This document shows, piece by piece, positions 23,051 to 63,337 of a stretch of 64,000 nt of DNA. The stretch's first letter is position 1, and every line of letters starts with the position of its first letter. This stretch comes from Botryotinia globosa. Its lineage: Eukaryota; Ascomycota; Leotiomycetes; Helotiales; Sclerotiniaceae. The stretch is from positions 558,001 through 622,000 of the forward strand of contig RCSZ01000018.1 of NCBI GenBank assembly GCA_014898425.1, read 5' to 3'. Below the pieces are notes generated by a model. It saw nothing but the letters and a program-made list of their open reading frames with translations, made no database searches and was not told the origin of the DNA. Made by a program: the position numbers and the translations under genes.

Positions 23051-26000
23051 TTACACAAATCTCTTTAAAAACTCCATTCCCCTCTCTACTGCTCTTATCC
23101 CCGCATCGCCACCTCTATCCTTAGTCAAATCAAAAAGATGCCCCGATGCCTCCACAATCTCAATGCCTGCCTCAACTCCCCTTTCTTTCAGCGCCTCAAA
23201 TGTTTTCTGGCTTTGTTGCCAAGGAATTAAATCGTCTTCTGTACCATGAATCAAGAATGTGGGGGTCTTATAGTGTGAAGAGATAATGTGTGAGTAAGGT
23301 GATATGCGGGCGATTTGGCTGCGTGAGGGCATGGGGAGGTTGTCGTAGGAGGTGGTGGAGGGAGAGAAAGAAGAGGTTGTGTGAGAGCTGGAAAGCGATG
23401 GGAGACCATTGATCAAGATCGGTAATGCTTGCGCGCGCCAGTTCATATGTAAAATAAAGCGGGTGCGTGGATCCTGTAGAGAGAATAATTGAGTCGAAGC
23501 ACCAGTGCTGGTTGTGGGCGTATAACTTGTTACCGGAGTATTCTGTACGCCCTCGAGAAGATTATAAGGTGTGGAAGGATCGGAGATTGACATTGTTGGA
23601 AAAATGGGGGTTTTCCACCCTAGTTCAGAAAATTAGAACTTTTATACGTATTGGGAAACCGAGGAGAAACTTACATTCATCGTCATAATTTGTAGGACAG
23701 TAAAACGCCAAAATAGCTTCGGGTGGTTGAGTCCCTTGCTCGAGAGATGTGAAGGCGCTGGACATGGCGAGCGTACCGCCGGTGGACCATCCAAGTACAA
23801 CTACTCTACTACCGTCTACCCTTTGCTGAGGGCAATTCTTTAGAATTATGGATGGTAAAGTATTTCGGGCCCATGCTAGCGCATCACAAACATCGGACAT
23901 GGCTCCTTGGCGGAGTGGCACCTCGGGTATAAACCGATAGTCAATGCTAACTGGGATAAATCCGTTGTCTTGGAGCAGTCGAATGTGCCTTGGATTCATA
24001 TCTCTTCGGCTGTATAATGTATGGCCTCCACCATGGATCATAAGTGCTGAAATTTGTCAGCATGCTATTCTAACCATCATATTTATCATTTTGTGTGGCA
24101 CTCACCAATAGGTCTCTCAATTTCATTCTTCGCAGTACTAGAATCATAATAAACGTCCGCAAAAAGTCGACATTCCCCAATCATCTTATACTCCAGCGTT
24201 TCATACTTGAAACTTTCCCTCGGTCTCTTGGGAACAATACCCGTACTCTCGGGAGCCTCAAGAAATCCTGTGATAATCCTGACAGTCCGCGATTCAGCAC
24301 TCGAATTATGTGTCCACGAAACATGCCCAAATCCAGCTGTTTTCATACTCGATTCCCAGAACCATTCATCGGCCAAAACGTGGGATCGCCCGTCTTCGAA
24401 AAACCACCAGCCATCTAATAGTCCAAATACCAAATCAAACCAAAATATATTACGGGTGAACTCGACTAGTGAACAAAAGCCGTTGGGCAGGAGCATATCG
24501 CGAATGTGTGCTGTAGATTTGGTGATGTTTTTGGTTGCATGGATACAGTTCGTTGATAGCACTATGTGAAACCTTTTCTGCATATTTTCAGAGGCTGGCT
24601 TTTCAATATCTAAAGTTGTAACAGTGACGTTTGGATATTTGGCAAACCTTTTCTTGGCGGCATTGACGAACATGGGGGAGATGTCGGAGAATGTGTATTC
24701 GAACGGTATGTTATTGGAAGTGAGAAAATCTATCATGTGTTTTGTTGTTCCTCCAGTTCCTCCACCGATTTCAAGAATTTTAACGATTCCGGAATGGGAG
24801 GACAGAGCTTGTTGAAGGAAATGCGTGAGGTGGGCTGTGATGGCTGCCGGCGCTGGAGCGGTGGCATACCATTCTTCCAAGAGCGTTTTGTTTTCTCTTT
24901 TTCCAAAGAGGAGCTGTACGGGATCTGCTTTACCTGTAAGACAGTCTGCAAGATTGGATCCGGTGACGTGGAGAACACGGTGTTCAAGGTGAAAGAGTGG
25001 TGCTTCTGCCAAAATTTCCTGATACAATTTAGAAGATGGAGTGGTATTGACCGGAACATTCGTTCGCAGAAATCTTCCTTCGCCACTCTTTATCAAATTA
25101 CCATCTTCCAATATATTGTACAACTGCGACACCAATTTCTGATGTTTTGGAAGGAAACCGATTGACGGGAGAACTTCACCGGCAATTAACGACGGAATGA
25201 GACACCCGAGTTTGACAAAGGCCTCTACAACATAAGACAGGACGAGCTTCTTTTGCGAAAGATAAATATTCTCCCAAAAGCCATTGAAACCTGTCTCTTT
25301 CGCAAACGTGTCGAACTCACGGCGAACTTTGTCAAATACCAACTGCGATTCTTTTAAGAAAGATGAGTCGTCCGGCGCCAAGGTTTCGCTTGTAGATTCC
25401 TCAATGACAATAGGTTCCTCGATCTTCTTCAGACTAGAAGTGAGAGCCTTCGCATCGATATTCTTCTTTTTGATATCCTTCTTGGCAGGCTTGATATTTT
25501 TTCCAAATACAGCAATACAAAGCTCTCCAAAAGTTTGAAACTCATCCAGTGATAGATTTCTAACACCGAACATTTTGCTGATATCATTTCCAAGCTCGAT
25601 AGCTAACAAAGAATCTAGCCCTTCATCTACTAGGTTCATTTCTGTTTTCACAATACCCTCGGGGAGATCTAAATGCTCGACCAATAGCTGCTCCAGTCGA
25701 GAAACTGGATTGGGACCTGCTGAGAGTGGTGATGTTTCTTCGTTATCTTCTTCCTCGGAGTGAATTATCGTAGTAGCGATGGATCTGTAACCTTCATCTT
25801 CCATAGGTGTCGAGACTGTCAATTTTTCCATCTCAACATTATCAAATGTGATCCGAGGCTCATCAATGACAATAGTGCTGCGAGCGTTTGCTTTAGACAA
25901 TGTCTTGGTTAAAGAATTAATATTGACTCGCATGAAAATGGCGCCAAAAATCGTTAAAACAAGCTTATGGCTTCGTGAGTCGAAGACATAGATATCATTC

Positions 26001-29000
26001 TCTACTTCTCTTGGTCCGGTGGGCGAATATGTTGAAAAGACCGTCCATACAGATTGACTATCTGATGTATCCAGTTCTTTATGAAATTCAAGATCAGATA
26101 TCTTTACGCAGACATTGACTTCATTGTCATTGATGGGAATAAGACAATTGACGTGGAGACCAGCTACTTGAATGAAGTTGTCCACCGCGATTGGGTCAAT
26201 TATAGTCTTGCGTCCTAAGCCTGAGAACTGACTCTCTTTTGGTAGTCCAATCTTTCCGACAATCTCGTGCTCCCTTGCATAAACATCCCTTACACCTTTA
26301 TAAATTTCGGAATATGTTACTGCCCGAGAAAACCTGTCGTATATCTGCGTTCCTTGGAGGCTTTTCGCCTCGGCATCTGATTGAATAGCCGTGAGGCGAG
26401 TTTGCGGTATCAATCTTTCCGTTCGTGACGTGCTTATTGGGAAACTATCTCGCAGCACTATCTTACCAGTAGCATGTATCACTGGTTGAGATGAATTTCT
26501 CTTTATTGTCGGACCCTGGCTTGAAAATTCGAATAGCCAAGACTCGCCATCTGCTCTGAGACTTAAGGCCACTGATTTATCAAGTGCTTTACCCAATGGA
26601 GCTTTAATCTCAAGGCCTTGTATTTGAGGAAGTATAGGTGTGTCTTGATGTAACTTGTAGTTTTCAAGAATCAGAATCGCAGAGGATGCAAGTTCCATGT
26701 AGAGAGGGGCAGGACAAAGTGGCTGCCCCAGAACTGCATGACCAGTGATATATTTTTGGTATCCTTGCTCGTGTACATTAATCCGAAATTCGGCATGACT
26801 CCTATCTTTGTCATGAAATTTTACAAATGACAGCATGGAATTTGGCCGTTTGGTAAAAGAATCTCCTGGTATTGAAGGTAGAGGCGCGGCGGTCTGAGGT
26901 TCTTTCCATTCCAACCAATGACGTGCCTTCTCAAATTGATAAGGAGGCAGATCAATTCTTTTGTAGTTGTCTTTTTCGCAGCGATGATGAAGCCAAAAGT
27001 GGGCTTTACTTCCAGCTTTCCAAAGTTCAAGTGTCGTATTTGTTAATTGATCTATGACTCTTTCGCTGTCTATTTTGATATCCAAAAACTGGTGCAATTT
27101 AACAGTAGATGTTCCCGACTTGAGTGCTCTCCTAGCCATTTTGGTGATGGCTGATCCAGAACCAACATCTAGCCATGTGCAGGGACCAAAATTGTGATCG
27201 ATACGTTCAACTGCGTTGCCAAAGTAGACTCCTGTTCTCGTGTGTTTAACAACCAGTTCGGGACTAGGAGTTGACCATGCTTCATTTTCAGAGCATGTTT
27301 CAATGTGAATTTTGGGTTTGCTGAACTCCAAGCCTTTCATGATTTCCATGTACTCAGGTAGAAGAACATCGGTTAATGAGGAGTGATATCCGTGGGTAAC
27401 ATCCAATTTTCTTGCTTTGAGTGACGAAAACTCCACTGTGTTGTTCTTGAGGATTTCTTCGACCTTTGCAATAGCGAGATGGGTACCGACCAAAACAAAG
27501 CTTGTCGGGCCGTTGTAACACGCAATTTCGACTTCAAACGCGAGCCCTTGCTTTCTTGTCAAGCCAATAAGATTATCCAGAGTATCTCGATCTGTTTCGA
27601 CAGCCAGCATAGAACCGTTATCATGGCCCCATAACTTCTCAACCAATTCAGCACGACCAACAACGAGCTTCAAACCATCCTCCAGAGAGAGAGACCCTGC
27701 AACCGTCAACGCTGTCAATTGTCCAAAGCTATGACCGATCAGTGCGCTAGCTTGGATACCGGAATCTAGCCACGTCTTAGCAGCGCTATATTGCAAGACG
27801 AACAGTTTAGTGTGAAGATTGACTGTGCTAGGATCAGGACTGGAGTCGAAGATACTAGGGAATACGGAATTCTTTCCCAAGAACCGCAGAGCCTCATTGC
27901 AATCATCAACATGACGACGGAAGAGTGTCGATTGATTGTATAGATTCCGATCCACAGAAGCTGTAGCGCTTGTTTGTCCACCGAAGCACAATATTACCGG
28001 CTTGACCTTCTGAGGGAGGGTGAAGTGGCCTGCCATACTGTTTGTCAGCGCATTATCGAGATCGCTAAGGTCTGAAACTGCCACCGTGAAAACGTTGGTA
28101 AAATTCCAGTTCTGAGTTTCTGCTAGGCCATAAGAAAAATCGCGCAAAGCAATAGAGTTTTGACAGAGCTGGGGAACTTGGGTTTTTAGACGATCGCAAT
28201 AGGCTGCCAAACTTCCAGGAGAATTTGCAGATACCCTGATAGGATATTCAGCTGTCATAGATGAACCCTCTGGGCCGCTAAGATGACGAGACTTTAGAGC
28301 TTGGGAAGGTGGTTCAACCACGACTATAGATGCATTGCTCCCAGATGCACCGTAGTTGTTGATGCTGGCGATACGGTGGCCAGCTTCCCATGGTGTTGTT
28401 TGAAGGGGGATTTTCATTTTGTCCGGTTCCAAAGCTTTTATCTTGGGGTTTAAGGACGAATGGTTTGCTTGTTTTGGTATCGATTTGTACTTCATCATTA
28501 GAAGGACTTTAATTAATGACGCAACACCCGAAGCACCTTCCAGATGACCAATATTGCCTTTCACCGATGCTACATGTAATGGTATCGATCGGTGTGCTCC
28601 GCCAAATACTTTGCGGATTGCATCTATTTCTATTGGATCTCTGTTTTGAGTCAGATCCTGAACCATAAAGCCTGGCAATATTGCAGAAGATGTAGATTTC
28701 CAAGATTATTGAAGAAGAAGAGATAAACCTACCCGACCGGAGTTCCTGTCCCATGAGCTTCAACGTATGTGAACTCCGACGGACTGGAGCCTGCAAGTGC
28801 CGCCACCTTCTCGAACAACACCGACTGAGATTCTAAATTTGGCACCGTAATACTCGTGGAATTCATACTCTGAGTAACAGCAGATCCAGCAATAACTCCT
28901 AAGATAGGGTCACCGTCTGCAATCGCATTCTCCAATCGTTTCAACACAACGATTCCCACACCCTCTCCTCTACAATATCCATCGGCCCCCGAATCGAACG

Positions 29001-31039
29001 GCTTTGTCGCGCCAGTCGGACTCAAAAATGACGCTGCCCCCAAATTTTCGTAAAAGTAAGGACTAGTATATAGAGAAACACCTCCTGCTAGAGCCGCTGA
29101 ACAGTCGCCGGCCTGCAGAGATTTACATGCGGCGTCAATTGCAACGGCTGAAGAAGAGCAAGCTGTGTCGTAGATCACTGAAGGCCCTGTGAAACCGAAG
29201 AAATGACTGACTTTTCCACTGAGAAATGCTCGTAAACTGCCTAAAGATGAAAATGCATTTGGTGGATGTGAAGCAATATTATCGTTGTAGTCAGAACCGC
29301 AAACTCCGAAAAAACATCCCACATCATTTTGCTCATCGCCTCCTTCTCTTTGAGACATTGATTGCCGGCCAAAATATCCACTGGATGAGAGAGCATTATA
29401 AGAACACTCAAGTAAGAATCTTTGTTGTGGATCCATGGACGCCGCTTCTCGAGGAGATTTCTGGAAAAACCTATGATCAAATGCATCAATATCATCCACG
29501 AAATTGCCATAGAATGGCTGATTCGAAAACCTCCTCAAACCTTCGACAGGGAATCTGCCATCTGGTATCGCTCGAAGTAATGACTTGCCTTCAGTCAAGA
29601 TATCCCAAAATTCTTCGGGTGAATTTGCTCCAGGAAATTTGCACGAGTACCCAACCACTGCAATCGAGTGTTTGGGATAGACATGCTCTTTCGGTGGACG
29701 AGACTGCAGAATATCTTCTTGCAAAGGAGGATTAATGGTATGGGATCCATTATCAGGAAGGAACTTGCTAAGCTTTACGACTTTGAGATCAAATTCACGA
29801 ACAAGCCGGCTTGGGATGCAATCGACGAACCCGACTTGGAGAACATGTCTCTTTTGACTTGCATCCAATTGAGCGACTGTGTTTGAAATGGTCGCATACC
29901 ATTTCGATTGCCTTGAAAGCAATGAAACCAGCGCTATTTCATGAAGTGGTCCTTCACGTATTTCTTGTCCATCCTCACCTGTTCTCAAAGCGGTCCGAAG
30001 ACTTTCTGCTTGGGGGAATTGTAAAGATTCCGTTGATGCACATAGTTGAATGAGTTTCTGACAAACGTTTACTTGAACAGATGAATGGAAACGACCGAAG
30101 ACAACCAATGGTATTACGCTATACCCTTGATCCAGCAAGGCTTTTGATATGGGATCACGAAGTTTCTGGGGAAGTGTTATCGTGATTTTGGTTTTGTCGG
30201 AGATAACAGAAATATAAGCCTACATAAGCACAGCCACCAGAGATTAGCACACAACCTTGGAAACCTTCCATTCTCCGAGAATTTCACATGGAGCTGGACG
30301 GGAGCTGGAGAACCTTGGAATTCAACGGTATTAAGTGTGGCTTTGTGACGCTAGCCACATAATTGTGCACTAGAAAGACCTCGGGACGACTTACTTCTGG
30401 AAAATCCTTCAAGAACTCGTAAACATCGCAAACGGGTTTATTCTTCTCACTCCAAGAAACCATAACAGCCGTTGTCAGATTCTCTCCCGCACTCGACTGA
30501 TCTAGATCAACATAAGCGCCTATACAAAGAGCAAGTCGCAAGGCATTTGAACATAGTTTGACCAAAGTGTCTTCGTCCGAAGCACATGTCACAGCGGCTG
30601 CGGTCAAAAACCCGATACAGAAGCCCTGGGCCCCAATCGGAGTCGCAGATGCAAGGAAATTATCATATGCGTGAACAGGCCCATAGTGGGTCTCGAGATA
30701 ATTGAAAAACTGCACAACGTGGATGATGACTGTAAGGGGCGTGCAAACCATGTTCGGTAAATCTCGATTCATTGGCTCTGGTACTAATGAACCAGTCTCT
30801 AGCCATTGAATCAGGAAGGTGCAGTATTCTACTGCGGGTAGTTTCTGCAGAGAAGAATCATGAGCGAGTAGTGTTGGTAAGAAGTCGGAAAGCTCTGCAA
30901 TGGCGTTGTAAAATGGCTTTAGGCGTTTGTTAGACACTAAAGAGTTTCTAACGGCGGAGAGATGGACCGCGTCAAAGGAATTCGTCTGTGGTCCAAAGAC
31001 CAGCGTTGAATGTTGAAGATTCATGCTCACTAGCGACAT
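23051..31039 (-). CDS. Non-reducing polyketide synthase, SAT-KS-AT-PT-ACP-CMeT-esterase/TE
   Basis: Five exons (31039 to about 30396; 30221 to about 28735; about 28657-24113; about 24049-23674; about 23620-23051) give roughly 2,540 residues without an in-frame stop. Domains and visible key residues, in order and approximate: SAT with the GFCIG active-site motif near 140; KS with DTACSSS near 570, EAHGTGTPVG at the second splice site and KGNIGHLEG; AT with IGHSFGQ near 1018; product template with a hot-dog His (GHAVLG, about 1349) and an Asp in DPIAVDNF; a single ACP with EGLDSLLAIEL near 1726; a C-methyltransferase with the SAM motif LEIGGGTGGTT near 2012; and a C-terminal alpha/beta hydrolase with HGGGH (about 2234), GWSTGG nucleophile (about 2312), GTEDDLIPW and ASGHLFD. 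Established knowledge: this layout is shared by fungal synthases making C-methylated orsellinic acids (5-methyl- or 3,5-dimethylorsellinate). The exact product, starter unit and number of methylations are inference. All catalytic residues I can check are present. Confidence 0.95.
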
Positions 31040-31924
31040 GGTATTGTTGAAATCAAATTAGCGTTTGTGTAACACCGTGATCAATAATCGAGTACGAGAG
31101 TCTTGAATATAGCTTGTCATTGACCCCTCAACAATCCAGTCAGTGGTGGGTATATTCTGAGGCGATAATCAGTGTTAATCGACCAGTTCGAGGCGATTGT
31201 CAGTCCAGGGCAGGCTATCAGTACAATATGCCAACGCCTAGCAGATTATCCCGATTCACCTATGTCGACCGGTGGTAGGATTAAATGCTCCTGTTGAATG
31301 CAAGGAAAAGAAATACAAACTACGAAAGTATCAAATGGAAAGTTCGACATAATATATGTATGCTCACTCACCTATCTGCTATTTGGCCTCATAAACTTTG
31401 ACAAATTCATCACAGTTAGATTATGAGGCACATCACTCGGGTTTTCTTCCAGGGGAAATAGCTTCTGTCTCCCTGGTTGAATACTCCGCTCCCTTATCGA
31501 ATCTTACTGGAGCTGATCTCCTCAACGGCAGAGCGGAGTTGGTGATAAGAAGCCTTGCGCTGTCAGAGTATGATGGAGGCGTGTTGGTGGTCGTGTTGGT
31601 CTTGGTATTTTATGTACTCCGTACTCGTTTACTTGGAAGAATCCCGGATACAACCGTCTTGGTGGGCATGGGTTCGCAGGCTCGTTACTAAATCGCGTAA
31701 TCAACGGCTTTGGTTGAGCTGATACTGAGTATACGTGATTATAACGCGCAGTTGAGGCAAAAGTAAACCATGTACAGGTAGACCAATTGGGGCCACAGAT
31801 TCTCTAGATCTTTTGTTCAATCATATACATTAGGGTATAATTGCTTCTGCGGCTCTCATAATTACATGTTGTACACTCGAGGGGTAACCGTTCCCTTCCA
31901 TGGCCGAAATACATATAAAATCAA
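31040..31924. other. Upstream region of the polyketide synthase
   Basis: This spacer contains the synthase promoter. Open frames here are short and overlap on both strands without protein character. I see no conserved operator that I can name. Confidence 0.5.
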
Positions 31925-41232: not shown

Positions 41233-42311
41233 GTTTTTGGCCGTGTCTTATGAGAAGCAGCGTGAGATTTCCAAGCGGTGACGAAAAACGAGAGACTCTT
41301 AGTGATTATGCAAAGCACTCCAAAATTACAATTGTGCGATAATAAGGACAAAAACAAAAGGAAATCGAAAACTCGAATAATGTCTAAACTGAATCTTTGA
41401 TTTCTAATTCTCTAGATGGGATATCAACGTGTATCTATATGTTAAGGCTCGCGTCTACTCAGCCTCAAGTTGGTGTAGGTCTGGTGGGTCGGGATAGGGC
41501 AGTACAGTACATGCGCGCGCTTGGGGTCTTTGGAAACCGACTATGAGGCTTCTGGAATCATTGGGGTCGCATTTGAGCATTGAAAAAATCTGAAACATAC
41601 TAAATCCACAAAAACCTCGACACTACGACTAGAATCTTGAATCAATGGATTGATGCGGGGTGGGATTGTGGGGTATATGGGATCTCGCGAGAATCCACAG
41701 GCATCCTTTGGGTTTGAGATTGAGTTATGATTTACCTTACATATCTCACGTTGACGTTTTCATTCAAAAATTGTGCAAAAATTCCTATTTTTCAATTCAT
41801 TAAGGATGATGAATGACTATTAAGATGATCATTAAATCTCCCCACTACAAACTATCGCCAGAACTAAATAGGACTATCTCATACCCACCAGGATGAGTCG
41901 TCTAACGAACGTACTAAAAGTGTCCAACATAGACCTTTAAGGGTCTCGGGAGGGTTAGTTAGCTTCTCCAGCTACACCTAAAAGCTCAATCTAGTGAATA
42001 GGATGAGCAGAAGTAAGTCTATTAAGTTATGTCGAATAACAATTAGTAATTCAAACCAACAGGGACAAGGCATGCTTCGATGGACTACAGATGTGCAACA
42101 CTGTCCTTTGAAAGGTTCTAATCGCAATTTCAATTCGAGAAATCCGGTCGGTTAGAGAAGTACAAGACAATGCCACATAAAGTTTCATTTCAATACAATA
42201 TTACATAAACAACGGATCTATCCTTAGGTACCTATCCTCCAAGTACAAACACAGCCAGTTAAGAGCACTCTCCAAAGCCAGGTCTTGTCCTTATCAACTC
42301 AACATACCTCA
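41233..42311. other. Intergenic stretch, nothing seen
   Basis: This AT-rich spacer lies between two minus-strand genes. It holds the phosphotransferase promoter and the 3-prime end of the rhodopsin-like gene. No repeats or frames stand out. Confidence 0.5.
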
Positions 42312-43624
42312 TCAATTAACCGCTGATCCAGCAGCCGAAACAAAGCTCTTCTCGACCAGAATTCTCTCCTCGGGGTACTTGGGATATCGCTGACTCTCCA
42401 AATCTCTAGCTCCGCCCGTAACAATTGAAGTTGGTCCTGATCCATCGTCATTCCAAGGTGACTTTTCGGAGAGAGGACTTGGCAGATTGTTGGACGTGGA
42501 GTCAGAAGAGTGTTTTCGAAACAGGGAACTGTTCTTGCTGCGGATAGAGAGCTTGGAACGCACACTGCCGATCATAGAGCCGAGGCTGCGGCCGCCGCGG
42601 AGAAGAGGTGCGAGACATGGGAGACATGCAGTTATAGTGCTGGCGTAGGCTTCGATGTGAGCCCAGAGATAGACCTCTTCGTCGAGTTCTAATGCTGGTT
42701 AGATTAAGGCTGCAAGACGATTCGAAATAGTGGACTTACTGAGATCAGGTGTGCTGGTTCCGAATAGTTTCTGGGAATAGTAAAGTCGAATGCAAGATGA
42801 GATGAGACAACTATCATACTCGGCATCAGCAAAATGTAACCTTTCTTCTAGGATAACACGGGATTCTTACAAAGCACCGAGAAGGAAGACACCGGATACA
42901 TAAACTTTCTTCTCTGTCGGCATATGAAGGCCTTTGATCACAGGGAATGGAAGACTGAGAACTGCGATATCAAGGAAGATATCTACAGCTGCGCAGGCGA
43001 TGACGAGATTTGGAACATCCAGGATAAACTGAGTGCCAATCAACTCGGGTGTAGTATTCCAATATGCTGCGACGGGATGAGCCGAGAAAAGGAACAGCTA
43101 GATGGGTTATCTCTTTAGCGCCACACTTCCAGTCGATATCATTGATACGTACGAAGAAAGACAAAACCATATACAACGAAATCATGCCCAATACAGTATT
43201 CGCACAGATGATGAAGGTCCGACTGGTGAAAATGCGTTTGTAGAAAACCACGACTGATATTTTGATAAGTCCATACACAAAATGGCAAATCAAGGTATCT
43301 GCAAACTGGACTTCAAAGAACCGTTCGATATCTGGGAAGCTCAAAGTCGATAGATGAACTCCTCGGAGTCCACTCGCCGCTGCATAGATGCATTCCACAC
43401 ATAACGCAATCGAGCATATCTACCATAAAAACGTCAATGGTACGCATGATGAGTTGATGAGAAGATGAACATACCAAACAGAAAAGAATCAACCAATCAT
43501 CAGCTTTCAAGGCCAGCTTACTTCTCTTTCTCGCATAGAAGCGTAGGGAAACTATAATAGTTGCGAGCACAACAAGAATCACATTTGCGACGACGCCGCC
43601 GATGGCAACTTCTAGGATCGCCAT
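42312..43624 (-). CDS. Rhodopsin-like (PTH11-type) seven-helix integral membrane protein
   Basis: Five or six exons join cleanly. Exon 1 (MAILEVAIGGVVANVILVV, RFYARKRSKLALKADDWLI) has the basic loop and DDW motif of the fungal rhodopsin-like domain. The next gives ALCVECIYAAASGLRGVH and LIKISVVVFYKRIF. A later exon gives LFLFSAHPVAAYWN, PNLVIACAAVDIFLDIAVL and LPFPVIKGLHMP, followed by VFLLGAFCLISSCIRLYY and LDEEVYLWAHIEAYASTITAC. The cytosolic tail is serine-rich. These proteins are plasma-membrane receptors or receptor-like proteins of mostly unknown ligand. All junctions I tested keep frame with GT..AG borders, in contrast to the decayed relative at 31925-33185. Confidence 0.85.
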
Positions 43625-45358
43625 AGTATGGGGGTTGACTATGATGGTTGTTGTCTGGAAGAGAATATCACGTAGATGTGGGACTATACTTCAAACACAA
43701 TATCTCTGGACTCGAGTGGGGATATTTTTACATATATGAATGGTTTATTATCCGTAACGCCGACAAGTGCTGTGCTACATACCTACCATATACTATTAAT
43801 TAGAATCTTCCACCCCCTCGACGCGACGCATGGCTAGATGGTACAGAATCGTGAGAGGGGTAAAAGTAAAAACGGCTGAGCTGGAAGGTTCTTCAATAGA
43901 ATGCATTCTGTCCAAGGACGCAACGGCTCGGACATTCTATTACATGACTTGGCAATTTAGTTTGCCAGCGCTCCAAGAAATGAGGAGCTGGGATGCTTAG
44001 ATACATCACTTAGACACGAGGTTCTGAACTTTGTGGCCAGAGTGGTACTACATGAGCAATAGCATTCGGTCTTGGTGGTCGTACGTGGAAGTACCTAGTC
44101 CAACATGATTTACCTTTTCAATGTATCGCTGAATGTCCATGTTCGTTGAAGATGTATATTTAAACTCCACAATCCTCCATTTTTATGTCTCATTCAAATC
44201 CTTTCCGTCTATCTCCCAACTTCTCATACCACTCTTTCTCTCCAAGGAAAAGCCCTAGATATCACCCAATAACACCCATCCCTCCCTTTCGCGTGGAACA
44301 ATAAGCATACTTACGCTCATCTCGCGAACGAATTACCTTTTCTTGAAACCATACTTGTCCACACATAAACATCCAATACTATCCCGTCCTTTCAAATGCC
44401 GTGGAACACTGCTACCTAAATTTCAACTCTCAATAAATTTCATTTGCATCAGATACAGAGACATATTTGCTCTCATCTCCAATTATCTGATTCCTCATTT
44501 CATTTTTAATCATTCAGGCCCCTGATTCTGGCTTGAGAATTGAAATACCACATCACGCCACAGATACAGGAGAGAGAACGGCAACTTTCGGCTTGAAGCC
44601 CTGATGTCAATTTCCTGGATGGTAATTTACGAAGTTGGTTATTGCCATCAAGCTGCTTACAGGATGGCACTTCCGACGGGCTGGCTGATTAATATTACGG
44701 GACTCCGCTTCCTTCCTTCTTCCAAGTCGGAGAGTTTGAGTAAATTCCGAGAGGAATATATTTCCCGGCGTATGGTATGTTCTTGGGTTGCTATCTATAA
44801 AGTTCGGCTTGCGCCTCTTTCTGTATCGTGGAGATGTAATGTATTGATGAGACGATGGCAATGGATATTTCAGAACCATTTTGTATCTGCAGTATGAAAT
44901 GTATGGAATGTATTTCTATTCGAATGTGAAGGGAGAAGAATTCTCAAGATTTCTATTGTTATACACGGCTTATATTATGGTCGCACATGTGCAACATACC
45001 AAGGCTCCAAGACGATAAGAACGCGGTTGGGAGTCGTACGATCCCCTCCAACTCGTGCTAGAAATGCTATCGCGCAGAAGAAAATGTCGCAGATATCTCG
45101 CATACAGTATCGAAATTTGAGTTTAATATGCTTCAAAGTGGTTGTGCATAAAGTCAAAGAAGACGCCTCTCTGTATACATGACTTCTTTATCTCATGCCG
45201 CCACGGGCAATTTAGTCCTTTCTGTGATACTGAGGGAGAAGTCTGTGGTACGGAGGGAGAAGATAACAATTCATATTGTGAGTGAACATGCTGAATCTGT
45301 TTATATACTTTACTGTATGGTAGAGTGACGCACACATATCTTCAAACTTCTTGGCACA
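43625..45358. other. Intergenic stretch before the UstYa block
   Basis: Frames here are under 100 codons and unconvincing. I searched both strands for a small secreted repeat-bearing peptide and did not find one. It separates the rhodopsin-like gene from the first UstYa gene. Confidence 0.5.
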
Positions 45359-46384
45359 ATGTGGTTTCCTTTAATCACGAGACAACCTGTTTACGCACCC
45401 GTCACCGTCGATTCTGACGAAGAAGCAAAACCGAGGCTTCATGAGAGTTCCGAGAACAAACCCAGCTTCAGATTGAATATTCTAATACTCTTTGCCCTTT
45501 GTTTCGGATCTTGTGCACTGGGGTTTCTTGCTGCAAGATTACTAGACACACAATCGATCGCTGACCGTGTAGGACCTCGATGTATACACTCTTTCCCCGA
45601 AGTTATCAGATCATGATGGAGTTAACGTTACATGATTAGTTGCTAAAGAATTAAAGACTTTCTCCTACAATCGCAATTTCTCGTATCCGCCATCTAATAC
45701 CACAGATGCTGCTTGGAATGGATTATTCATGACGAAAGGTGATGGAGGATTCTTCAATCATCCTTATTTGAAGGGAGAAAGAGCTACGCTGAGCGTCTTG
45801 CATCAGTTACATTGTTTGGTACGGATGTATTTCTGTCTTGCCTTTTCGATTCCGTATCCAATGCACAACTTTCATTGATTTTCCTTTCCATCAAGAATGT
45901 ATTCTATGATATCCCAATGATAGTCATTAACGGTAGTCTAGGATGGCATACGTCACATTTACTACCTCAATAATGACGCAGCGACGACAGGAACGTTACT
46001 TCTTGACGAAGAATTAGAACCTCATATGAGAAGAAGTCACATGAGGCATTGTATTGATTTTTTGAGGCAGAGTTTGATGTGTTGTGGGGATAGCAGTATC
46101 GAGAGGGTCAACCCTGAGTTGAAAGTAAGTTTATCTCTTCTTCGCTTAAAGTGATCTTTTTTTTGTATTTTAATGAAAGGTTGAGGCGATTATGTTTTGG
46201 CTCGAGGATAAGAGTAATTGTCATGGCAAAGAGAAGGAAAGATATGGATGAAGATAAGAAAGAATGCTTGCTAACGGCAGTGATGCAGGGTGTAACTGGA
46301 TGGGGTACTGAGCATATGTGTGCGAATTGGGGAGAGCTCCGGGATTGGGTTGGAGAGAGACAGAGATTAGATCGCGAGGGATGA
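45359..46384 (+). CDS. UstYa-family (DUF3328) protein, copy 1
   Basis: Four exons give about 210 residues, the family norm. The N-terminus is cytosolic and acidic (VTVDSDEEAKPRLHESS), followed by one transmembrane helix (LNILILFALCFGSCALGFLAA), making a type II membrane anchor. The luminal part has SYPPSNTTDAAWNGLF and both family-defining histidine/cysteine motifs: HQLHC at the end of the second exon (donor near 45819) and HMRHC in the third, followed by IDFLRQSLMCCGD. The last exon, after a longer intron near 46123-46289, ends GWGTEHMCANWGELRDW, matching the conserved W/C ending. UstYa proteins are known in ustiloxin, phomopsin and cyclochlorotine pathways, where they carry out oxidative cyclisation or hydroxylation, probably with copper bound by the HxxHC pairs. 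It is convergent with copy 2. The first intron donor (GTGTAG) is slightly unusual. Confidence 0.88.
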
Positions 46385-46892
46385 GGGAAAAGATAGGGAG
46401 AACTGACTGTGATGAGTCAAAAATAAAGAAAAACCTCGGAGAAATCGGAAGAAGATTGCCTGAACAGCTGGAATTCGTAATAAGTTGGATAGGATAGTTG
46501 CAACGAGATAGAGTTTGTATGATAGTCGCATTGTTAAAGATTGGGTAGCATGTAGCTTAAATTGTTGTCTCAACAGTCAAGAAATCTGTCATAGAACGTT
46601 AATGTGACAGAAGCTGAGTTTTCAAAATTTGTTGGTTCATCTTTATACACAAACATCCTGACGATGGAACTCTAGATAGTTACAATATCAAACCATGCCA
46701 CCGCAAATTCTGAACAGTTTGCCAAGGCGCGTCAATTAACGAGAAGCAGCTGTCTCAAAAACGTTCAACACAGCTCAATTCTCTCAACCAAGTACATTGT
46801 GTTGTACCGAAAGCGTTAAAAGATAAATGTGTTTCATTACCACTATCGCCCATCACACATCCGCAACCCAACGGCTCCGAACTCCATCCCGA
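46385..46892. other. Convergent 3-prime spacer between UstYa copies
   Basis: No frame or structure of note; the two UstYa genes face each other across these 508 bases. Confidence 0.5.
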
Positions 46893-47786
46893 TTATGCAC
46901 CCTCTTCCAATCTAGGATTAACAAGCGCAGCCATCTCTTCCTCACCAACTACACGATCGGCGAGAGATTCCATTAGCGCGTTCCAATCCACGCATCGATG
47001 TTCTGTCGATTTGACGTGCGGCTGTGGCTTAGATAGCTTTTCCCATCCGAAAGTTGTGAGCGTTGTGTCGCCTTGACACATTACTGCACTGCGTAAAATA
47101 TCAAAACAGTGATCTGACTACTGCCTTAGTATCTTCATCTTGGTGATAAAGAGAGAAAAAGTTACCTGCATGGATATCCCAATGTTCAATCGATGGGTCT
47201 GTTATGTTGGGATAGTAGTGATCCCGATAGTTCCAGCGTCGAAGCATTTTCTGTCCATGTGTTAGTTTCTTGGCTGAAACAATAATTCAGATGAAACTTG
47301 CAATGCAATGCAGTTGATGGTGAGCTCCAATCCAGACCATGTGACCACCACCTTCTGGTAAAGATATGGACTTTTGATTCCTCTTTTCCAATTCTTCGGC
47401 TGTGACCCGTATATTCATGTTTTTCAATAGATCATGCCATGCGTGGTCTACGGACTCGCTCGGAGGCCCAGCATAAGGTGAAGATGGGAGATCGGGAGGA
47501 GCAACTGGTACATATCGAGTTCTCACACCGGGTAAAGCTAGAATGAATGAGTACCACGGCACCTGAAGGTCATTGGGAAATTATGAAGCATACGATGAAC
47601 TGAGGTTGATATAGAACAACTCGATCGAAATAGGGCGAGTACAAAAATGATAGTATATAATAATATAAGTGAAAGATGTAGGAAGACGGCTCTCAGAGTT
47701 AGGTTGGCACTATCTTGTCTATTCCCAATTTTGCCATCTTCTGATCTTTCCTCATCCAATAAAAATGGGTTACTTTCTGATGACAT
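46893..47786 (-). CDS. UstYa-family (DUF3328) protein, copy 2
   Basis: Four exons are needed. The first, from MSSESNPFLLDEERSED, has one membrane helix (LTLRAVFLHLSLILLYTIIF). A 56-base intron (GTATGC..CTAG) joins SVH to PLPGVRTRYVPV, giving the family segment SPYAGPPSESVDHAW and HHQLHC. The next intron starts with GCAAGT, a GC..AG intron, and joins to KMLRRWNYRDHYYPN and IEHWDIHA. A third intron, ending in TCAG before ATCACTG, restores HADHCFDILRSAVMCQGDTT. Both HxxHC-type motifs (HHQLHC, HADHC) are therefore intact, and the ending STEHRCVDWNAL fits the family. Copy 2 is closer to the classic UstYa ending (MCQGDTT) than copy 1, so the two are not recent duplicates. An upstream in-frame ATG at 47843 is possible but less likely. 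Confidence 0.86.
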
Positions 47787-47898
47787 TTTGCGTTGATTGT
47801 AGGAATAAAACTGTTTACTGAAGATTGACGTGACTGATCGCACATCTCTTTAATCTAAGCCAAGGACAATACATATCGGCGACTCGAGCTCAGCATTA

Positions 47899-48468
47899 TC
47901 AGATTAGACTGCATAGAACCTTGGTATCGTTGCTACATAGAGCATATCGTATGATCTTCGGGGTAGCAATAGGCTTCAATGCATCGCCAACATAGCCAAG
48001 AATGGTAATCTCGACGACCCAATACCCGATGAGATCCCCGCAGACGATGGGCAGAATATTGATATCGGGAGATACTCGTCTAACCAAGAAGTTACGCGCA
48101 AGCAGCTGAAAGCTACGATATCCAATAAAAAGGATACCGGCCTGCTTTTGGTCACCGGTTAAATGCAAAACCGTCGAGATTTGCTGCAGCAAGCATAAAT
48201 GTCCGACATTTGTGCTACCAGATTGAGATAAATATGATGGGGAAACCGATAAGGCTTCTTTCATATAGGGGAAAAGATGAAACCAGCTGGGAAATTCTCC
48301 TCTCCACCAATAGTACAAGCGACCTCGTAGGGCAGAACAGCGAAAATGGTATTCGGTACTTATGTATGTGGAAGGCGAAGCTTTTTGCTCCTTGTCATCA
48401 TCCAATATTTGAATCTTTTCGGAGGAATCGATTAAGAAATGGAGAAAAAGATGAACTCCTAAAATCAT
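47899..48468 (-). CDS. Unrecognised 189-residue frame between UstYa and secreted peptide
   Basis: A single uninterrupted frame starts at an ATG at 48468 and has a hydrophobic stretch near its end (INILPIVCGDLIGYWVVEITILGYVG). It is rich in aromatic residues (RLYYWWRGEFPSWFHLFPYM). I do not recognise a family. The length exceeds what chance gives at this base composition. It lies on the same strand as UstYa copy 2, 112 bases upstream of that start, and is divergent from the secreted peptide across 106 bases. It could be a cluster-specific membrane protein, an exon of a larger gene or a decayed relic. Confidence 0.4.
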   Translation of the reverse strand: MILGVHLFLHFLIDSSEKIQILDDDKEQKASPSTYISTEYHFRCSALRGRLYYWWRGEFPSWFHLFPYMKEALSVSPSYLSQSGSTNVGHLCLLQQISTVLHLTGDQKQAGILFIGYRSFQLLARNFLVRRVSPDINILPIVCGDLIGYWVVEITILGYVGDALKPIATPKIIRYALCSNDTKVLCSLI

Positions 48469-48574
48469 ATATAACTGAACTATAAAATGATCGACTGAAC
48501 CTACCTCCTTATCTGCATTTTCTCAGATATCTAATACATTAAAAACTCAATCGAACCAGTATCCCCAAAGAAAA

Positions 48575-48862
48575 ATGCGCGTCACTCTTCATCAACTTAT
48601 AGTCTTAAGCTTTGGATTTATGGCCATTGCTGCCCCTCTCAGCCATCCTGGTAAGAGAACAAACGCACCTTACTGACAAATTACCCCGCTAATGACCATG
48701 ATAGACGCTCTTACGATCAGATCAAAAGGTTTGCGAAAATCCCTTGAAACTATGCAGCATCCTTTTGCTGAATTTCTATTAGATGGTGATGAGTTCGTGA
48801 GATGGCCTGACAACGCTATTGATGCGAACGGCCTTGCTGTTGCCGCTTACCAAGGGGATTAG
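48575..48862 (+). CDS. Small secreted peptide, candidate RiPP precursor
   Basis: Two exons (48575-48650 and 48705-48862, with a 54-base GTAAGA..TAG intron) encode 77 residues. The first 20 or so form a good signal peptide: basic start MRVTLHQ, hydrophobic core LIVLSFGFMAIAA, then PLSHP. The mature part has a basic stretch (IRSKGLRKS) that could be a processing site, then an acidic and aromatic C-terminal half (Phe at about 46, 49 and 56, Trp 59, Tyr 74) ending AAYQGD. There are no cysteines and no internal repeats, unlike ustiloxin- or victorin-type precursors. It is too short for the usual gene callers and stands between two UstYa genes and a P450, the expected place for a precursor. Identification as precursor is inference from context, signal peptide and size. 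Confidence 0.55.
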
Positions 48863-49395
48863 AGAAGTCAGGAGTTCTTTGCCAGATCGGAGGTTGTTTG
48901 TGGAGTTGAACGATCCATGGATAAGGAAGCTGGAGTGAATTGGAAAGTGGCTTGCTTATAGAGGCTGTGTTGTTGTAATTTCTTTTTCTCAATGTCATCA
49001 TTCTGGATGAGAGAGCGGGATCGAATGTTGAGCTCGTTCGGCATTTGGCGGCCAAGAACTTTTGATTATGTAGCTTGAGAGAATGTAACCCAATCACTTG
49101 TCGGAAAGATGTTGCGCATTGTCCCACCCGTCGTGGTAGTGAACAACGTGCCAATCGGAGCTACCCCTTTCTATTCCATGTTAAGAGGAGAGCCAATAGA
49201 CGACATATCAAGCACGTGAAGACGGCGGATATTCTGTCAGTTTGCTATCCGTTTCCGTTTGTCAAAATTATAAATATGCACCTAGTTACACAAATGAAAT
49301 GCCTTGAACTCGTAGGAATTGTGAGCTATTCAGATCTCTTCCAACACAGGAAAGAATAGCTTCTCAAATGAGAAGGGCAGTGAGCACTATTAGCT
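48863..49395. other. Spacer between peptide gene and P450
   Basis: Short frames on the minus strand here overlap the peptide gene end and have no protein character. It should contain the P450 promoter; nothing else is seen. Confidence 0.5.
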
Positions 49396-51008
49396 ATGGC
49401 CTATTTACTCATCGAATTGCTTTTATTGTTCTCAGTCATTTTCTGCTATCAGCTCTACACAAGATGGAAACTCAGAAAGAACACACCTGCAGAATGTCAA
49501 CAGGCTCCAAGTTTACCCGCAATCGATCCTTTTCTTGGTTTGGATCTGTTCAAGAAATCTCTCGAGATACGAAAACAGCATACCATCTTAGAAACCCACG
49601 CAAAGCAACATGATACTTACGGCAAGACATTCCAAGCTTTACGTCTCGGGAGAACCACGATCCATACAGCCCATCCAGACAATCTAAAAGCAATTTATGG
49701 AACGAACTGGAAAGATTGGGGTACAGGTAGAGCTGATGCCATGGAGCCTTTTTGCGGAAGAGGATTTGTCACTAGAGATGGCGAAGAATGGAGAGTTCAT
49801 CGAAGTCTGTTTGCTTCAAGCTTGACAGAAGCCAATACTGTAAATCTGAAAGTCCTCGGCGAAGCTTACGAACATTACACACAAGATTTGCCGCCAAATG
49901 GACAGACTGTTGATTTGGCGCCAACCTTCAATATGTTGGTGAGTTGCAGCCCAAAGAAAAGTGTATAATGTCTAATTGACCATAGTTCCTGGATCTATCA
50001 CTCCAATTTCTGTTCGGTAAGCGCATAGCAGAATTATACTCAGGGGACTCGCCGGTGGACATGGACACCTTCGAAAAAGCATTTGATACTGCACAAAATT
50101 GGATGGGTATACGATTAGCATTTGGAAAGTTTGGACGCAGTGTGTCTCTCCTCAGCAATAAGTGGAAAGATTCATGCAGAATAGTGCATTCATTCGTGGA
50201 CCATCATATTTTCAAAGCACTAGACAAAGTGCACAGCTTAAAGTCAGAAGACCATGCTTCAAGTCTTCTCGATAATTTAGTGCTACGGGGAAAGAACTTG
50301 GTCGAAATTCGCTCGCAAATTATTCAAGGTATGCTGGTAACCCAGGATACAACGGGCATAGTTTTGAGCAATACGATATTCCTGCTTTCGAGATCTCCAG
50401 AAATCTGGGCACGCCTACGCACGGAAATTTCTGCTCTAGGTCCAATTCAAGATTGGAGCCCAACAGACTTGAAGAATTCAATACTTCTTCATAATTGTAT
50501 AAAGGAATGTAAGCTTGCTTTATCTATGAGTTTCAAGGTTTTATTAAAAGAGAACTAACAATAGATAGCTTTACGCATCTATCCTCTATTCCACGCAAAC
50601 AGCCGTATAGCTCTTGTCGACACAGCACTTCCAACCGGCGGGGGTTCTGATGGTACAGCACCAATATTCATCCCAGCAGGCAGAAAAGTCAGCACAAACT
50701 TTTACACAGTCCACCGAGAAAAATCGGTGTTTGGGGATGACATTGAGATATTCAATCCCGACCGATGGAATCATATCTCTCCAAGTAGTTGGGCATTTAT
50801 GCCATTCAGCCACGGTCCGCGTAGCTGTGCTGGTCGACACAAAGCTCTGGGAGAGGCCTCGTACATTATTGCCAGAATGGCAGCTCAGTTTCAACGAATA
50901 GAAAGTCGTGATGATAGGCCATGGACCGAAGACGTGAAGCTGGTGGTGAAAAATGGTAATGGTTGCCACGTAGCGCTTTTTTCTGCTCATGGAGTAGCTT
51001 CGTCCTAG
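49396..51008 (+). CDS. Cytochrome P450 (CYP52-like class)
   Basis: Three exons (about 49396-49938, 49986-50510 and 50571-51008) give about 505 residues. The N-terminus is a membrane anchor (MAYLLIELLLLFSVIFCYQLY) followed by KNTPAECQQAPSLP. Visible signatures are the C-helix WRVHRSLF, the ExxR motif rebuilt across the last intron (KESLRIYP), the PERF-type FNPDRWNHI and the heme loop FMPFSHGPRSCAGR with its ligand cysteine. The I-helix reads MLVTQDTTGI: the acid-alcohol DT pair is present but the usual AG before it is VT, an unusual change. The enzyme would oxidise a substrate at the endoplasmic reticulum; CYP52-type members known elsewhere hydroxylate aliphatic chains. Lying beside UstYa genes and the peptide, it may tailor the same product (inference). 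No lesion is seen. Confidence 0.88.
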
Positions 51009-52664
51009 TTTACTGTGCCTCTTTCGATACGATTCGATTCCTGAATACAAATTGATGATAAGACCTTTTGATAATGCTTTGTTGTTCATGTGACCAACAT
51101 AAATGGAGTTTGCAACAGAAGGAATGAGACTTCCTGCAAGTGGTTTTGAATTGGTATCCAGATCAATTGGTGGCAAGATACAATCATCCAACTGTTAGAT
51201 GTGAGAAATATGCTCTTGTGTTTTGAAAGCGAATGAGGTATGAGGTGAAGCTGTTCCGAGAGTCGATCTGACGAGTGTGCTTGCGATATTGCAAACACCA
51301 CCAACTGTTGGAGTTGAGCGGGGGCATTAAAAGACAGCAATCGTTTGAGAATTCAAAATAAAAATGATGGGATATATTTTGGCCGAGTTATGAATAAAGC
51401 TATCTTCTGATGCCAAGCACATTTCCTCTTACCGTCAAGTTACTTCCAAAAAGTTTCCAGTTAAATGACAATTCCGGGCAAAACATATCGTCACGCCCAG
51501 GTACCAAACCCTCGGAAGATTAACACGCTATGCAATGAGCTTGATATTCCTATGAGCTCGAATTCGTCGATGATAAGATCGCGAGGAATCTGCATTTTAG
51601 ACATCAATCCAGTTGGCCGCAAAATACAACCATCATGCTCACTCAAGAGCTTCTGCTGAAATAAAAATCGCAGAGTACAAGAAACAATCAAACAAAACAA
51701 TCTTCAATCGTGAATAATACTCTGACCATCACAACTAACTAACCCCCCCTCCAACCATCAAATAGTTCGTCTAATCCAACCACGAGAAAGCCATCCCATC
51801 CAATACCCTCGATCGCCCCATCCACAAATCAAACACCTAACAAGCATTCCGAAACCCCTTAGCAGATTAAGAAGTCTCCATAGCAATAAACCCACATATG
51901 CAGCTCTCATATCGATACTTGATACTAGCCATGAGTGTAGCAGGAGCGGGCTAAGCATTATCTGCAAAGAGAGCATCTCCGGACCCTCGCATTGATGCGA
52001 TGATAGTGTTCAAAGTTTCGCTATCCATGAATACCTAAATGATAAAAAGACTAACTGACTGATAAAAAAATGAGAACTTTATCTATGGCGATGAAGAGAA
52101 AGCATACAAATCATATCCATCGAAACGACAGGAAACGAAACGAAAAGGAAAAACCTCAAGAAACACATAGAGACTGAGTCACAAGTTCCCGAGCTTCAAT
52201 CACCACTACGTTCCCTAACTAGGTACTACACCCACCAGCAGTAAGATTGAGATCGCACCACCTCTTCACTCACATTTCCCTACATCTCTACTTCCTAACA
52301 ATCGAGTAAACACATTGGATCAACCTACGCTTTCCATCCCCGCTCCCTCCACAACCTCGCTTCTCCGCGGCACCAAACCCACCAACCAAGCATATCACGT
52401 GAGCCACCTCACCAGCGTGGCAAAACTATTTGAAAGACACACTGGGGATTTGTTGCATATCGTCGTCAAATCAACACATGTCACACACGCATTAGCGCTT
52501 ACGTACAAGCTATTTGGTATTGGTTCGGATAAAGATGGTGGTTATCTGCTCTGCTTTGTGGGTGTGAAGGTACATGGATGTTTTTCGATAAATTGGGAGT
52601 TTGAATGTCTAGGTCGATGGAAAGTGAGAAATAGAACCAATACAGGCCGATCGCGTCCAAGAGA
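51009..52664. other. Spacer between P450 and MFS gene, nothing seen
   Basis: Frames here are short. The C-rich top strand at about 52200-52400 is the downstream flank of the minus-strand transporter. No gene supported. Confidence 0.5.
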
Positions 52665-54525
52665 CTATAATCTATATCTGAATCCTCGAGTTTGGAAATC
52701 TGTGAGATCTCCGCCCATGGCCATTTCTCCTTCGGTTCCCTCACCCGCGCCCGCACCCTCGGACTCCAAACCCCATTCCTCTCTGTCCCTCCTTGCGTTA
52801 ACCACCTTTAGATACCCCCTCAGTCCTATCGCCATTGCTGCAGACAGAAAGTAGCATCCCAAACAAACCGCAAAACCTCTCCCAAACCCCATATCTCTCT
52901 CTTGACCACCAAAAATATGCGGACCCAACATGTTCCCCACACAATACGCCACAAACATACAAGCACTCATTGTCATTTTCTTCGTCATTCCTCTTGTATT
53001 GGCTCCTATAAGACTCATTGTTAAAGGAATAGTCGCATGAGAAAAGCCAATCAGGTAGAAACCTGTTAGTTTTAACGAATTGAGAGGAGCCCAGTTCATG
53101 AGGATGGCGCCGATAATAGGGGGTAAAAGAAGAGTAGAGAGCAGGAGAGTCGTGGTGTTGCGATAGCGGGACGCGAGATATCCGGACAGCACAATTGTGA
53201 GAAAAGATATAAGAGAAGATGGGAGGGAGATGAGAGTTGATTGAAGACCAGTGAATCCGAAGCTTGTTATTAGGATGTTTGCGAAACTGGTTGTTCCTCC
53301 ATTCGGAATCTGGGCTCGGTTAGTTCTATTTACGGAAATGTAAGACTGTTGATATACCATGGTAAAAAGGGAGATGAAAACGCAAAACCAAGTTTTCGGA
53401 TCAAGTAGACACTCGATAGCTTGTTCACCTTTCCATTCATTCTTGATAGACATAGTAATTCCAGTCCCCGCCACACGAACTCTCTCCTCTGCACATTTCT
53501 TCTCTTCCGCGGTGAGAAATTTGGCTCTGGAGATAGTATCTGGTAAAAAAATCAGGACAACAAAGCCCCATAAAGCAGTCGCTGATCCGAATATCTTGCG
53601 ATCTGTTAAGGATGACTCTCAAAGGCTTGGTTCGGACCACACTTACAATATATAACAACTTCCAAGGTTTCAATGAAGAATGAATCTGTCCGATCCCAAA
53701 AGAGAGCAAACTAGCCACGGCACCCCCAAAAGAATTCCCCGCGTACCTAGAACAACATCAGCCACCTCAATATGGAAATATACCCAGCTTATCCACAGAT
53801 TACTTACCACAGCCCCATACGACTAGGCATCTCATCCCTCGTATACCACATACTCGTAACATACAAAAATGCCGGACTAATGCTTGATTCTACCATTCCT
53901 GTGAACAACCTAGCTACCATCAGTCCCTCGTATGAGGTACAGGAAGCCGTACTCGCAACAATGATTCCCCAGATCACAATATCCGCTGCAATATATTTTG
54001 CTACGGGGAGGGTTTGGATCAGATAAACGCCAGGATACTCCCATAAAAGATAACCGAAATAGAAGACACTCGAGATGGAACTAAACTGGCCCTCCACTAG
54101 ATGCTTGGTGGGTGTTAGTATAGTCAGAATTCCTTGTAGAGCAGAGAATCCCAAATCTCCCTATTCACGAACGAAATATACATACCGTATCTCCAACCAA
54201 CCCAAACACAGCGGCAGTGCTCAAGATACTCTTATCGATGTAATTAAAATTAAACGTTATAAACATCAAAGGCATGAGTCTTAAATCTATTTTTCTGACC
54301 AGCCTCTTTGCGAAAGCTGTGTTCTCAGGAAAGGCAGCGGCTGAAGTCGGTGAAGCTGTGATTGTGTCATCATTAGATTTGGTGGGATTGAGGTCAGCGG
54401 AGACCTCATCTGAGCTATTGAGAGATTAGTGATGAGTTTGATGATATAAGGGACCAATGTTGCGGTTGAAAGAATGAGAAATCGTAATACAGTAATGGTG
54501 TATCTTCCGTCGACATCTTCACCAT
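52665..54525 (-). CDS. MFS transporter, allantoate permease (DAL5-like, anion:cation symporter) family
   Basis: The protein joins from a small first exon (ATG at 54525 or 54516, STEDTPLL) through a short intron to SDEVSADLNPTKSNDD, then KRLVRKIDLRLMPLMFITF and NYIDKS, the typical first helix of this family. Later exons give GDLGFSALQG, SSVFYFGYLLWEYPGVYL, LMVARLFTGMVESSISPAF and YAGNSFGGAVASLLSFGIG, then the C-terminal half with ISVNRTNRAQIPNGGTTSFANIL, FYLIGFSHATIPLTMSLIG and KMTMSACMFVAYCVGNMLGPHIF. That is the full 12-helix layout of about 510 residues. Relatives import organic anions, vitamins or ureides at the plasma membrane; the substrate is unknown. The gene lies downstream of the Zn2Cys6 regulator on the same strand. 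Confidence 0.87.

Positions 54526-60048: not shown

Positions 60049-63337
<3,289 letters not shown>

Follow-up and report, generated by a model that had tools for sequence, protein, structure and literature searches.

A possible single-copy, repeat-free precursor peptide beside two UstYa genes in Botryotinia globosa

What do paired fungal UstYa oxidases act on when the small peptide gene beside them has none of the repeats of a usual precursor? The question is raised by positions 45359..51008 of a 64,000-nucleotide stretch of Botryotinia globosa DNA (assembly GCA_014898425.1, contig RCSZ01000018.1, positions 558,001 to 622,000; hereafter the window), where four genes are supported: two UstYa genes, here UstYa-A and UstYa-B, a third for a small peptide whose N terminus is signal-like, and a cytochrome P450 gene. 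Our reading, tentative and close to an even call, is a ribosomal-peptide locus that varies the dikaritin-type pathway: its precursor would be single-copy and processed without Kex2, and the peptide would be the substrate of the oxidases. A first-pass annotation had proposed a five-gene set in less than 6 kb for a ribosomally synthesized and post-translationally modified peptide (RiPP), with a single-copy, repeat-free, secreted precursor of 77 residues. The UstYa pair, the P450 and the conserved, repeat-free peptide with its signal-like start stand; the 77-residue product, the fifth gene and Kex2 processing do not.

The product of the peptide gene is most likely 59 residues long, encoded in three exons, because four named Botrytis orthologues lack exactly the 18 residues that the longer form takes from an in-frame intron. 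These orthologues, each of 59 amino acids (E = 2.9e-23 to 9.3e-18 in a protein database search), come from B. byssoidea, B. convoluta, B. cinerea (BCIN_02g08910) and B. porri, and the intron-encoded residues are absent from all four annotated proteins. The search used the 77-residue form as query, relied on shared five-residue words and gave six candidates, with matches standing for 90% clusters. A fifth match, P0005, which looks like an unspliced read, shares its first 25 residues with the B. cinerea protein; two codons past the RST of exon 2 it stops, which closes the read-through form in that sequence. The gene thus predicted consists of a signal-like first exon, a 24-nucleotide second exon and a third exon that carries a conserved end.

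Conservation across five species, B. globosa included, is concentrated in that end. Invariant positions number 23 of 26 there, compared with 7 of 14 in the middle and 13 of 19 in the signal-like part, and mean pairwise identity is 0.935, 0.721 and 0.832, respectively. The 26-residue end, our candidate core, holds an invariant W and an invariant Y as well as an F/Y position. Read by eye, the N terminus is hydrophobic with AIA before AP, and 40 residues follow the signal-like part. AlphaFold2 (AF2) places a helix at residues 5–22 of an orthologue and gives no confident fold beyond this signal-like helix (mean predicted local distance difference test score (pLDDT) 59), a weak result from only four sequences. 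The peptide has no second copy in its own genome at E ≤ 10 (Botryotinia globosa assembly, 45.7 Mb). That gene callers have mistaken a conserved stretch for a gene, and that nothing functional is encoded here, seems very improbable: the gene is very short, and of the 11 named Botrytis species with a UstYa row 4 also have a named peptide row (90% clusters may hide others), but the spliced product recurs in four annotated orthologues, and the amino-acid conservation falls mainly in one exon. Short genes are often omitted from annotations.

The enzymes are on firmer ground. Both UstYa genes have intact models with two HxxHC motifs and match PF11807, as the first-pass annotation had held. UstYa-A carries HQLHC and HMRHC (E = 2.4e-23) and has relatives 68–88% identical in Botrytis, Sclerotinia, Stromatinia and Monilinia fructicola. 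UstYa-B carries HQLHC and HADHC in its final model of 244 amino acids, with relatives up to 91% identical. An earlier UstYa-B model of 236 amino acids, with an 80-nucleotide first intron, was replaced after comparison with orthologues; it had served as query for Pfam (PF11807, E = 4.9e-42), one alignment, the homologue search and the PDB search. The H, H and C of both motifs are invariant in 27 of 27 aligned sequences, drawn from 49 homologue matches with rows lacking the first motif excluded. The P450 model matches PF00067 (E = 1.7e-44), which bears out its first-pass naming, and shows 100% identity to Botryotinia globosa EAF00_011524 from end to end.

The second intron of UstYa-B (47251-47301, minus strand) is of the GC-AG type and lies just after the first HxxHC motif. 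The HQLHC string is missing from 8 of the 15 UstYa-B relatives that we checked, in 7 cases through one identical skip, and one further relative lacks HADHC. The skip is probably an annotation error, for which the simplest cause would be gene callers that refuse GC donors; the intron thus hints at how a catalytic motif may drop out of database models.

CctR, a DUF3328 (UstYa-family) enzyme, has been described as binding two coppers per monomer through its two HxxHC motifs and as requiring oxygen and electrons (PMC12435403). The AF2 model of a UstYa-B orthologue sets the motifs on helices 135-150 and 165-185 (mean pLDDT 73 in the best model, 53-64 in the other four), a placement that resembles the AlphaFold model of CctR presented there. 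A fold search with the UstYa-B model gave no match at E ≤ 0.001 among 38, and the PDB sequence search returned one match, at chance level (E = 0.97).

From these parts a pathway can be sketched. The 59-residue precursor would enter the secretory pathway by its N-terminal signal-like segment, and in the lumen two membrane-anchored, binuclear-copper UstYa enzymes would oxidise its conserved C-terminal stretch of about 26 residues, probably by cross-linking or hydroxylating side chains. The P450 would tailor the product. Release would be the work of signal peptidase, perhaps with another protease, and not of Kex2 at dibasic sites. The points that speak most for this scheme are how conservation is distributed along the peptide, the position of its gene between those for UstYa-B and the P450, and the linkage of UstYa and P450 genes in Monilinia and Stromatinia. 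It is possible, and we offer it with more reserve, that the locus exemplifies a class of UstYa-modified ribosomal peptides conserved in Botrytis, with a single-copy core that fills the last exon and is released without Kex2, the whole secreted peptide of 26-40 residues being the oxidised product in place of short excised repeats.

Table 1. Features of the window discussed in the text, in window coordinates.
Feature	Position	Strand	Details
UstYa-A gene	45359..46384	+	exons 45359-45581, 45640-45818, 45942-46124, 46289-46384; 226 aa
UstYa-B gene	46893..47786	-	exons 47594-47786, 47302-47537, 47166-47250, 46893-47113; 244 aa
Region between the divergent UstYa-B and peptide genes, presumably their common promoter	47787..48574		788 bp, from gene models
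189-residue frame of the first-pass annotation	47902..48468	-	no gene support; open frame 47902-48522, 207 codons
Candidate precursor peptide gene	48575..48862	+	exons 48575-48650, 48705-48728, 48783-48862; 59 aa
In-frame intron of the peptide gene	48729..48782	+	54 nt, GT..AG; translated as 18 residues in the first-pass annotation
Last exon with conserved 26-residue stretch, candidate core	48783..48862	+	conservation in 5 species
Cytochrome P450 gene	49396..51008	+	exons 49396-49938, 49986-50508, 50569-51008; 501 aa
Neighbouring gene frames, fungal rhodopsin domain	42315..43690	-	PF20684, E=1.5e-12, frame 42973-43419; outside the locus
Non-reducing polyketide synthase, open frames	23054..31057	-	from Pfam; not counted as part of the locus

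How far does the locus resemble known systems? Like the dikaritins (ustiloxin, phomopsin, asperipin-2a and victorin), it combines DUF3328/UstYa enzymes that bear two HxxHC motifs with an adjoining gene whose small peptide product has a signal-like N terminus. It differs from them in its single-copy peptide, free of repeats and dibasic Kex2 sites, and in the accompanying enzymes recognised in the frames scanned. One definition makes DUF3328 the class-defining enzyme (cited in PMC12048977), and DUF3328 proteins with two HxxHC motifs are present here. Of the five-gene definition of Ding et al. (cited in PMC12048977), the multiple DUF3328 genes are found, as two copies; the repeated-core precursor is not, and tyrosinase and methyltransferase genes were not recognised in the frames scanned, apart from a methyltransferase domain inside a polyketide synthase. 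For the transporter or peptidase genes of that definition, a frame of transporter type at 52668-53618 is at most a candidate. The enzymes are dikaritin-like; because the repeat precursor was looked for and not found, we do not class the locus as a classical dikaritin.

Other known systems share single traits with it. DUF3328 genes are reported to be enriched right beside Kex2-repeat peptide genes (PMC7329392), and these Kex2-processed repeat proteins (KEPs) share with our locus the adjoining DUF3328 gene and a tyrosine in the conserved part; the peptide here, unlike them, is not a repeat protein. The RiPP clans R1 and R2 of Parmeliaceae lichens have UstY homologues without a conserved repeat precursor, and a single core peptide is one possibility named for them (PMC12048977); what the present locus has in addition is an identified single-copy candidate with orthologues. 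In Sclerotinia sclerotiorum an adjacent DUF3328 pair likewise led to a putative RiPP cluster, on chromosome 3 (PMC6941272), whereas the UstYa-A relative of our locus is sscle_12g091590, on a different chromosome; that survey, as described there, also required tyrosinases and peptidases, which we did not recognise at this locus. Other chromosome-12 genes of S. sclerotiorum are treated in PMC8106195, PMC6390599 and PMC7065775. Searches such as those of PMC7329392 and PMC9632046 look for repeats between Kex2 sites. If our reading is true, repeat-based searches may have missed the substrates of some UstYa loci for which none is known, and the well-studied grey mould B. cinerea holds such a conserved single-copy precursor in BCIN_02g08910. 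Main texts of open-licence papers yielded nothing on the letters of the peptide or the tag 08910, and among the 20 of 83 papers listed on UstYa or ribosomal peptides in Botrytis and Sclerotinia none was recognisable by its title as dealing with this locus.

The same genome supplies a comparison. UstYa matches occur at 21 further places, and around 16 of these we searched for one pattern, frames in which three or more similar segments end in KR or RR. Such frames lie near 3 of the 16: the L016 frame at 4471 (+) has nine similar units ending in KR after a signal-like start, the L015 frame (start 7110 of the minus strand) has six similar units, and the L019 frame at 8521 (+) has four, without a clear signal start. 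Since repeat frames such as that of L016 are found there, at least one other UstYa locus of this genome has an ordinary-looking repeat precursor nearby; the present locus differs.

Is the gene set kept together in relatives? We read synteny from locus tags, without comparing DNA. The first-pass annotation had tied its proposal to conservation of the peptide beside the UstYa genes, and by tag the peptide lies near them in four other Botrytis species. UstYa-B and the peptide are consecutive in B. byssoidea (EAE97_009563 and EAE97_009564) and B. convoluta (BCON_0037g00280 and BCON_0037g00290); UstYa-A and the peptide are two tags apart in B. cinerea (BCIN_02g08890 and BCIN_02g08910); and B. porri has the P450 (001165), the peptide (001166) and UstYa-A (001168), with 001167 presumably UstYa-B. 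Partial sets were returned for B. aclada (UstYa-A 011442, UstYa-B 011443, P450 011444), B. fragariae (UstYa-A 003172, UstYa-B 003173), B. paeoniae (P450 00090, UstYa-B 00100) and B. sinoallii (P450 010776, UstYa-B 010778). Beyond the genus, pairs of these enzymes lie close to each other by tag in Monilinia fructicola (P450 009038, UstYa-B 009039), M. laxa (UstYa-B 007414, P450 007415), Stromatinia cepivora (P450 001440, UstYa-A 001443) and Ciborinia camelliae (P450 008234 and a 129-amino-acid UstYa-B-like protein, 008237). In no species besides B. globosa did the returned tags cover all four genes.

Several results, in the relatives, in the peptide and around it, weigh against a ribosomal-peptide pathway. 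Botrytis genomes are broadly syntenic, so shared neighbours within the genus count for little; high synteny is also mentioned in PMC10971195. The five-residue-word search returned no named peptide row outside Botrytis, despite relatives of UstYa-A, UstYa-B or the P450 in Sclerotinia, Stromatinia, Monilinia or Ciborinia. UstYa-B and P450 tags are consecutive in B. aclada, B. paeoniae, M. fructicola and M. laxa, and hence no peptide is annotated between them in those four genomes. In M. vaccinii-corymbosi a distance of eight tags separates UstYa-A (000727) from the P450 (000735), with UstYa-B (001043) at another place, and among UstYa-B rows at E ≤ 1e-15 none is named Sclerotinia or Stromatinia. 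The peptide itself shows no KR, RR, KK or RK in any of the five sequences, against the Kex2 processing first supposed, and no sequence repeat was found in it; nor does any KR-repeat frame lie within 42000-52000 of the window. A search of three upstream regions for shared promoter words gave none above control (one 8-mer, with 2 on both strands against a control mean of 2.8, and no 9-mer). Pfam recognised no tyrosinase, no S41 peptidase and no methyltransferase outside the polyketide synthase in the frames scanned, namely the three enzyme models, the 77-residue peptide form, the 189-residue frame and 25 further open frames, a set that covers 26 of the 34 frames of at least 150 amino acids and fewer than half of the shorter ones.

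Another reading is a small secreted peptide that is never modified, a signalling or effector-like product lying beside UstYa-B by chance or co-regulation while the enzymes serve something else. A signal-like N terminus, some 40 residues after it, the lack of dibasic sites and repeats, and general Botrytis synteny all agree with that; against it stand the lack of any cysteine after residue 19 in the five sequences, the four-sequence prediction without a confident fold, and the location between two UstYa genes and a P450 gene. We consider an unmodified peptide quite unlikely.

The other substrate to be weighed is a small molecule. The window also contains a non-reducing polyketide synthase (PKS) with SAT, KS, AT, ACP and methyltransferase domains, a weak DH/PT-like match below the cut-off and a hydrolase-like end, and the UstYa pair and P450 might tailor the product of this methylating enzyme or some other small molecule, with the peptide an unrelated neighbour. 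From its position the PKS is the probable counterpart of Bcpks18, whose tag is given as Bcin02g08830 (PMC11173184, PMC9920419) and which is listed among unknown polyketides (PMC9920419). Bcpks18 lies six tags from the B. cinerea UstYa-A, and the open frames of the window likewise suggest about five genes between PKS and UstYa-A. Non-ribosomal pathways are also known to use DUF3328 enzymes, as in the biosynthesis of cyclochlorotine (PMC12435403), a further point against a peptide substrate; CctR, from that pathway, shares the enzyme family and the motif arrangement, although no nonribosomal peptide synthetase was recognised in the frames scanned here. In two Monilinia species that yielded no peptide, UstYa-B and the P450 have neighbouring tags. 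Set against this are the roughly 14 kb from PKS to UstYa-A, the lack of any recognised tailoring enzyme in the frames scanned between them (these gave a kinase-like protein and two rhodopsin-domain matches, one of them below the cut-off, while others had no match), and the peptide itself, which sits between UstYa-B and the P450 with its end strongly conserved. We judge a small-molecule role unlikely, if well short of negligible. The melanin synthase Bcpks12, another candidate for this PKS, seems less likely in view of the methyltransferase domain and the Bcpks18 tag.

The fifth gene of the first-pass set was a 189-residue frame in the region between UstYa-B and the peptide gene, which we have dropped from the gene set as not supported. 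It has no Pfam match and no second copy in the genome at E ≤ 1, and the consecutive UstYa-B and peptide tags of B. byssoidea and B. convoluta leave no annotated gene between them there. We drop it despite a length beyond that of almost all shuffles: among 3,000 dinucleotide shuffles of the 787 bases tested, one reached 189 codons and none reached 207. Codon-usage scoring did not tell known genes from chance frames and is hence silent on this frame.

The expression data found concern only UstYa-A (BCIN_02g08890) and its other neighbour. In iprodione-resistant B. cinerea, BCIN_02g08890 and its neighbour BCIN_02g08880 are reported to exceed the wild-type level by about 9 log2 units whether or not iprodione is present, and iprodione itself hardly changes either gene (PMC7402349); the values could also reflect genes that one strain has and the other lacks. 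The discussion of that paper treats 08890 as a lysophospholipase, for which the sequence gives no support. Among the tags 08890-08930, 08890 was the only one mentioned in the open-licence papers searched. The rhodopsin-domain neighbour left of UstYa-A is, from gene order only, the probable counterpart of BCIN_02g08880.

To the right of the locus, a frame of major facilitator superfamily type lies at 52668-53618 on the minus strand (Pfam), and a large gene resembling family 2 beta-galactosidases has its frames at 59953-63334 on the plus strand.

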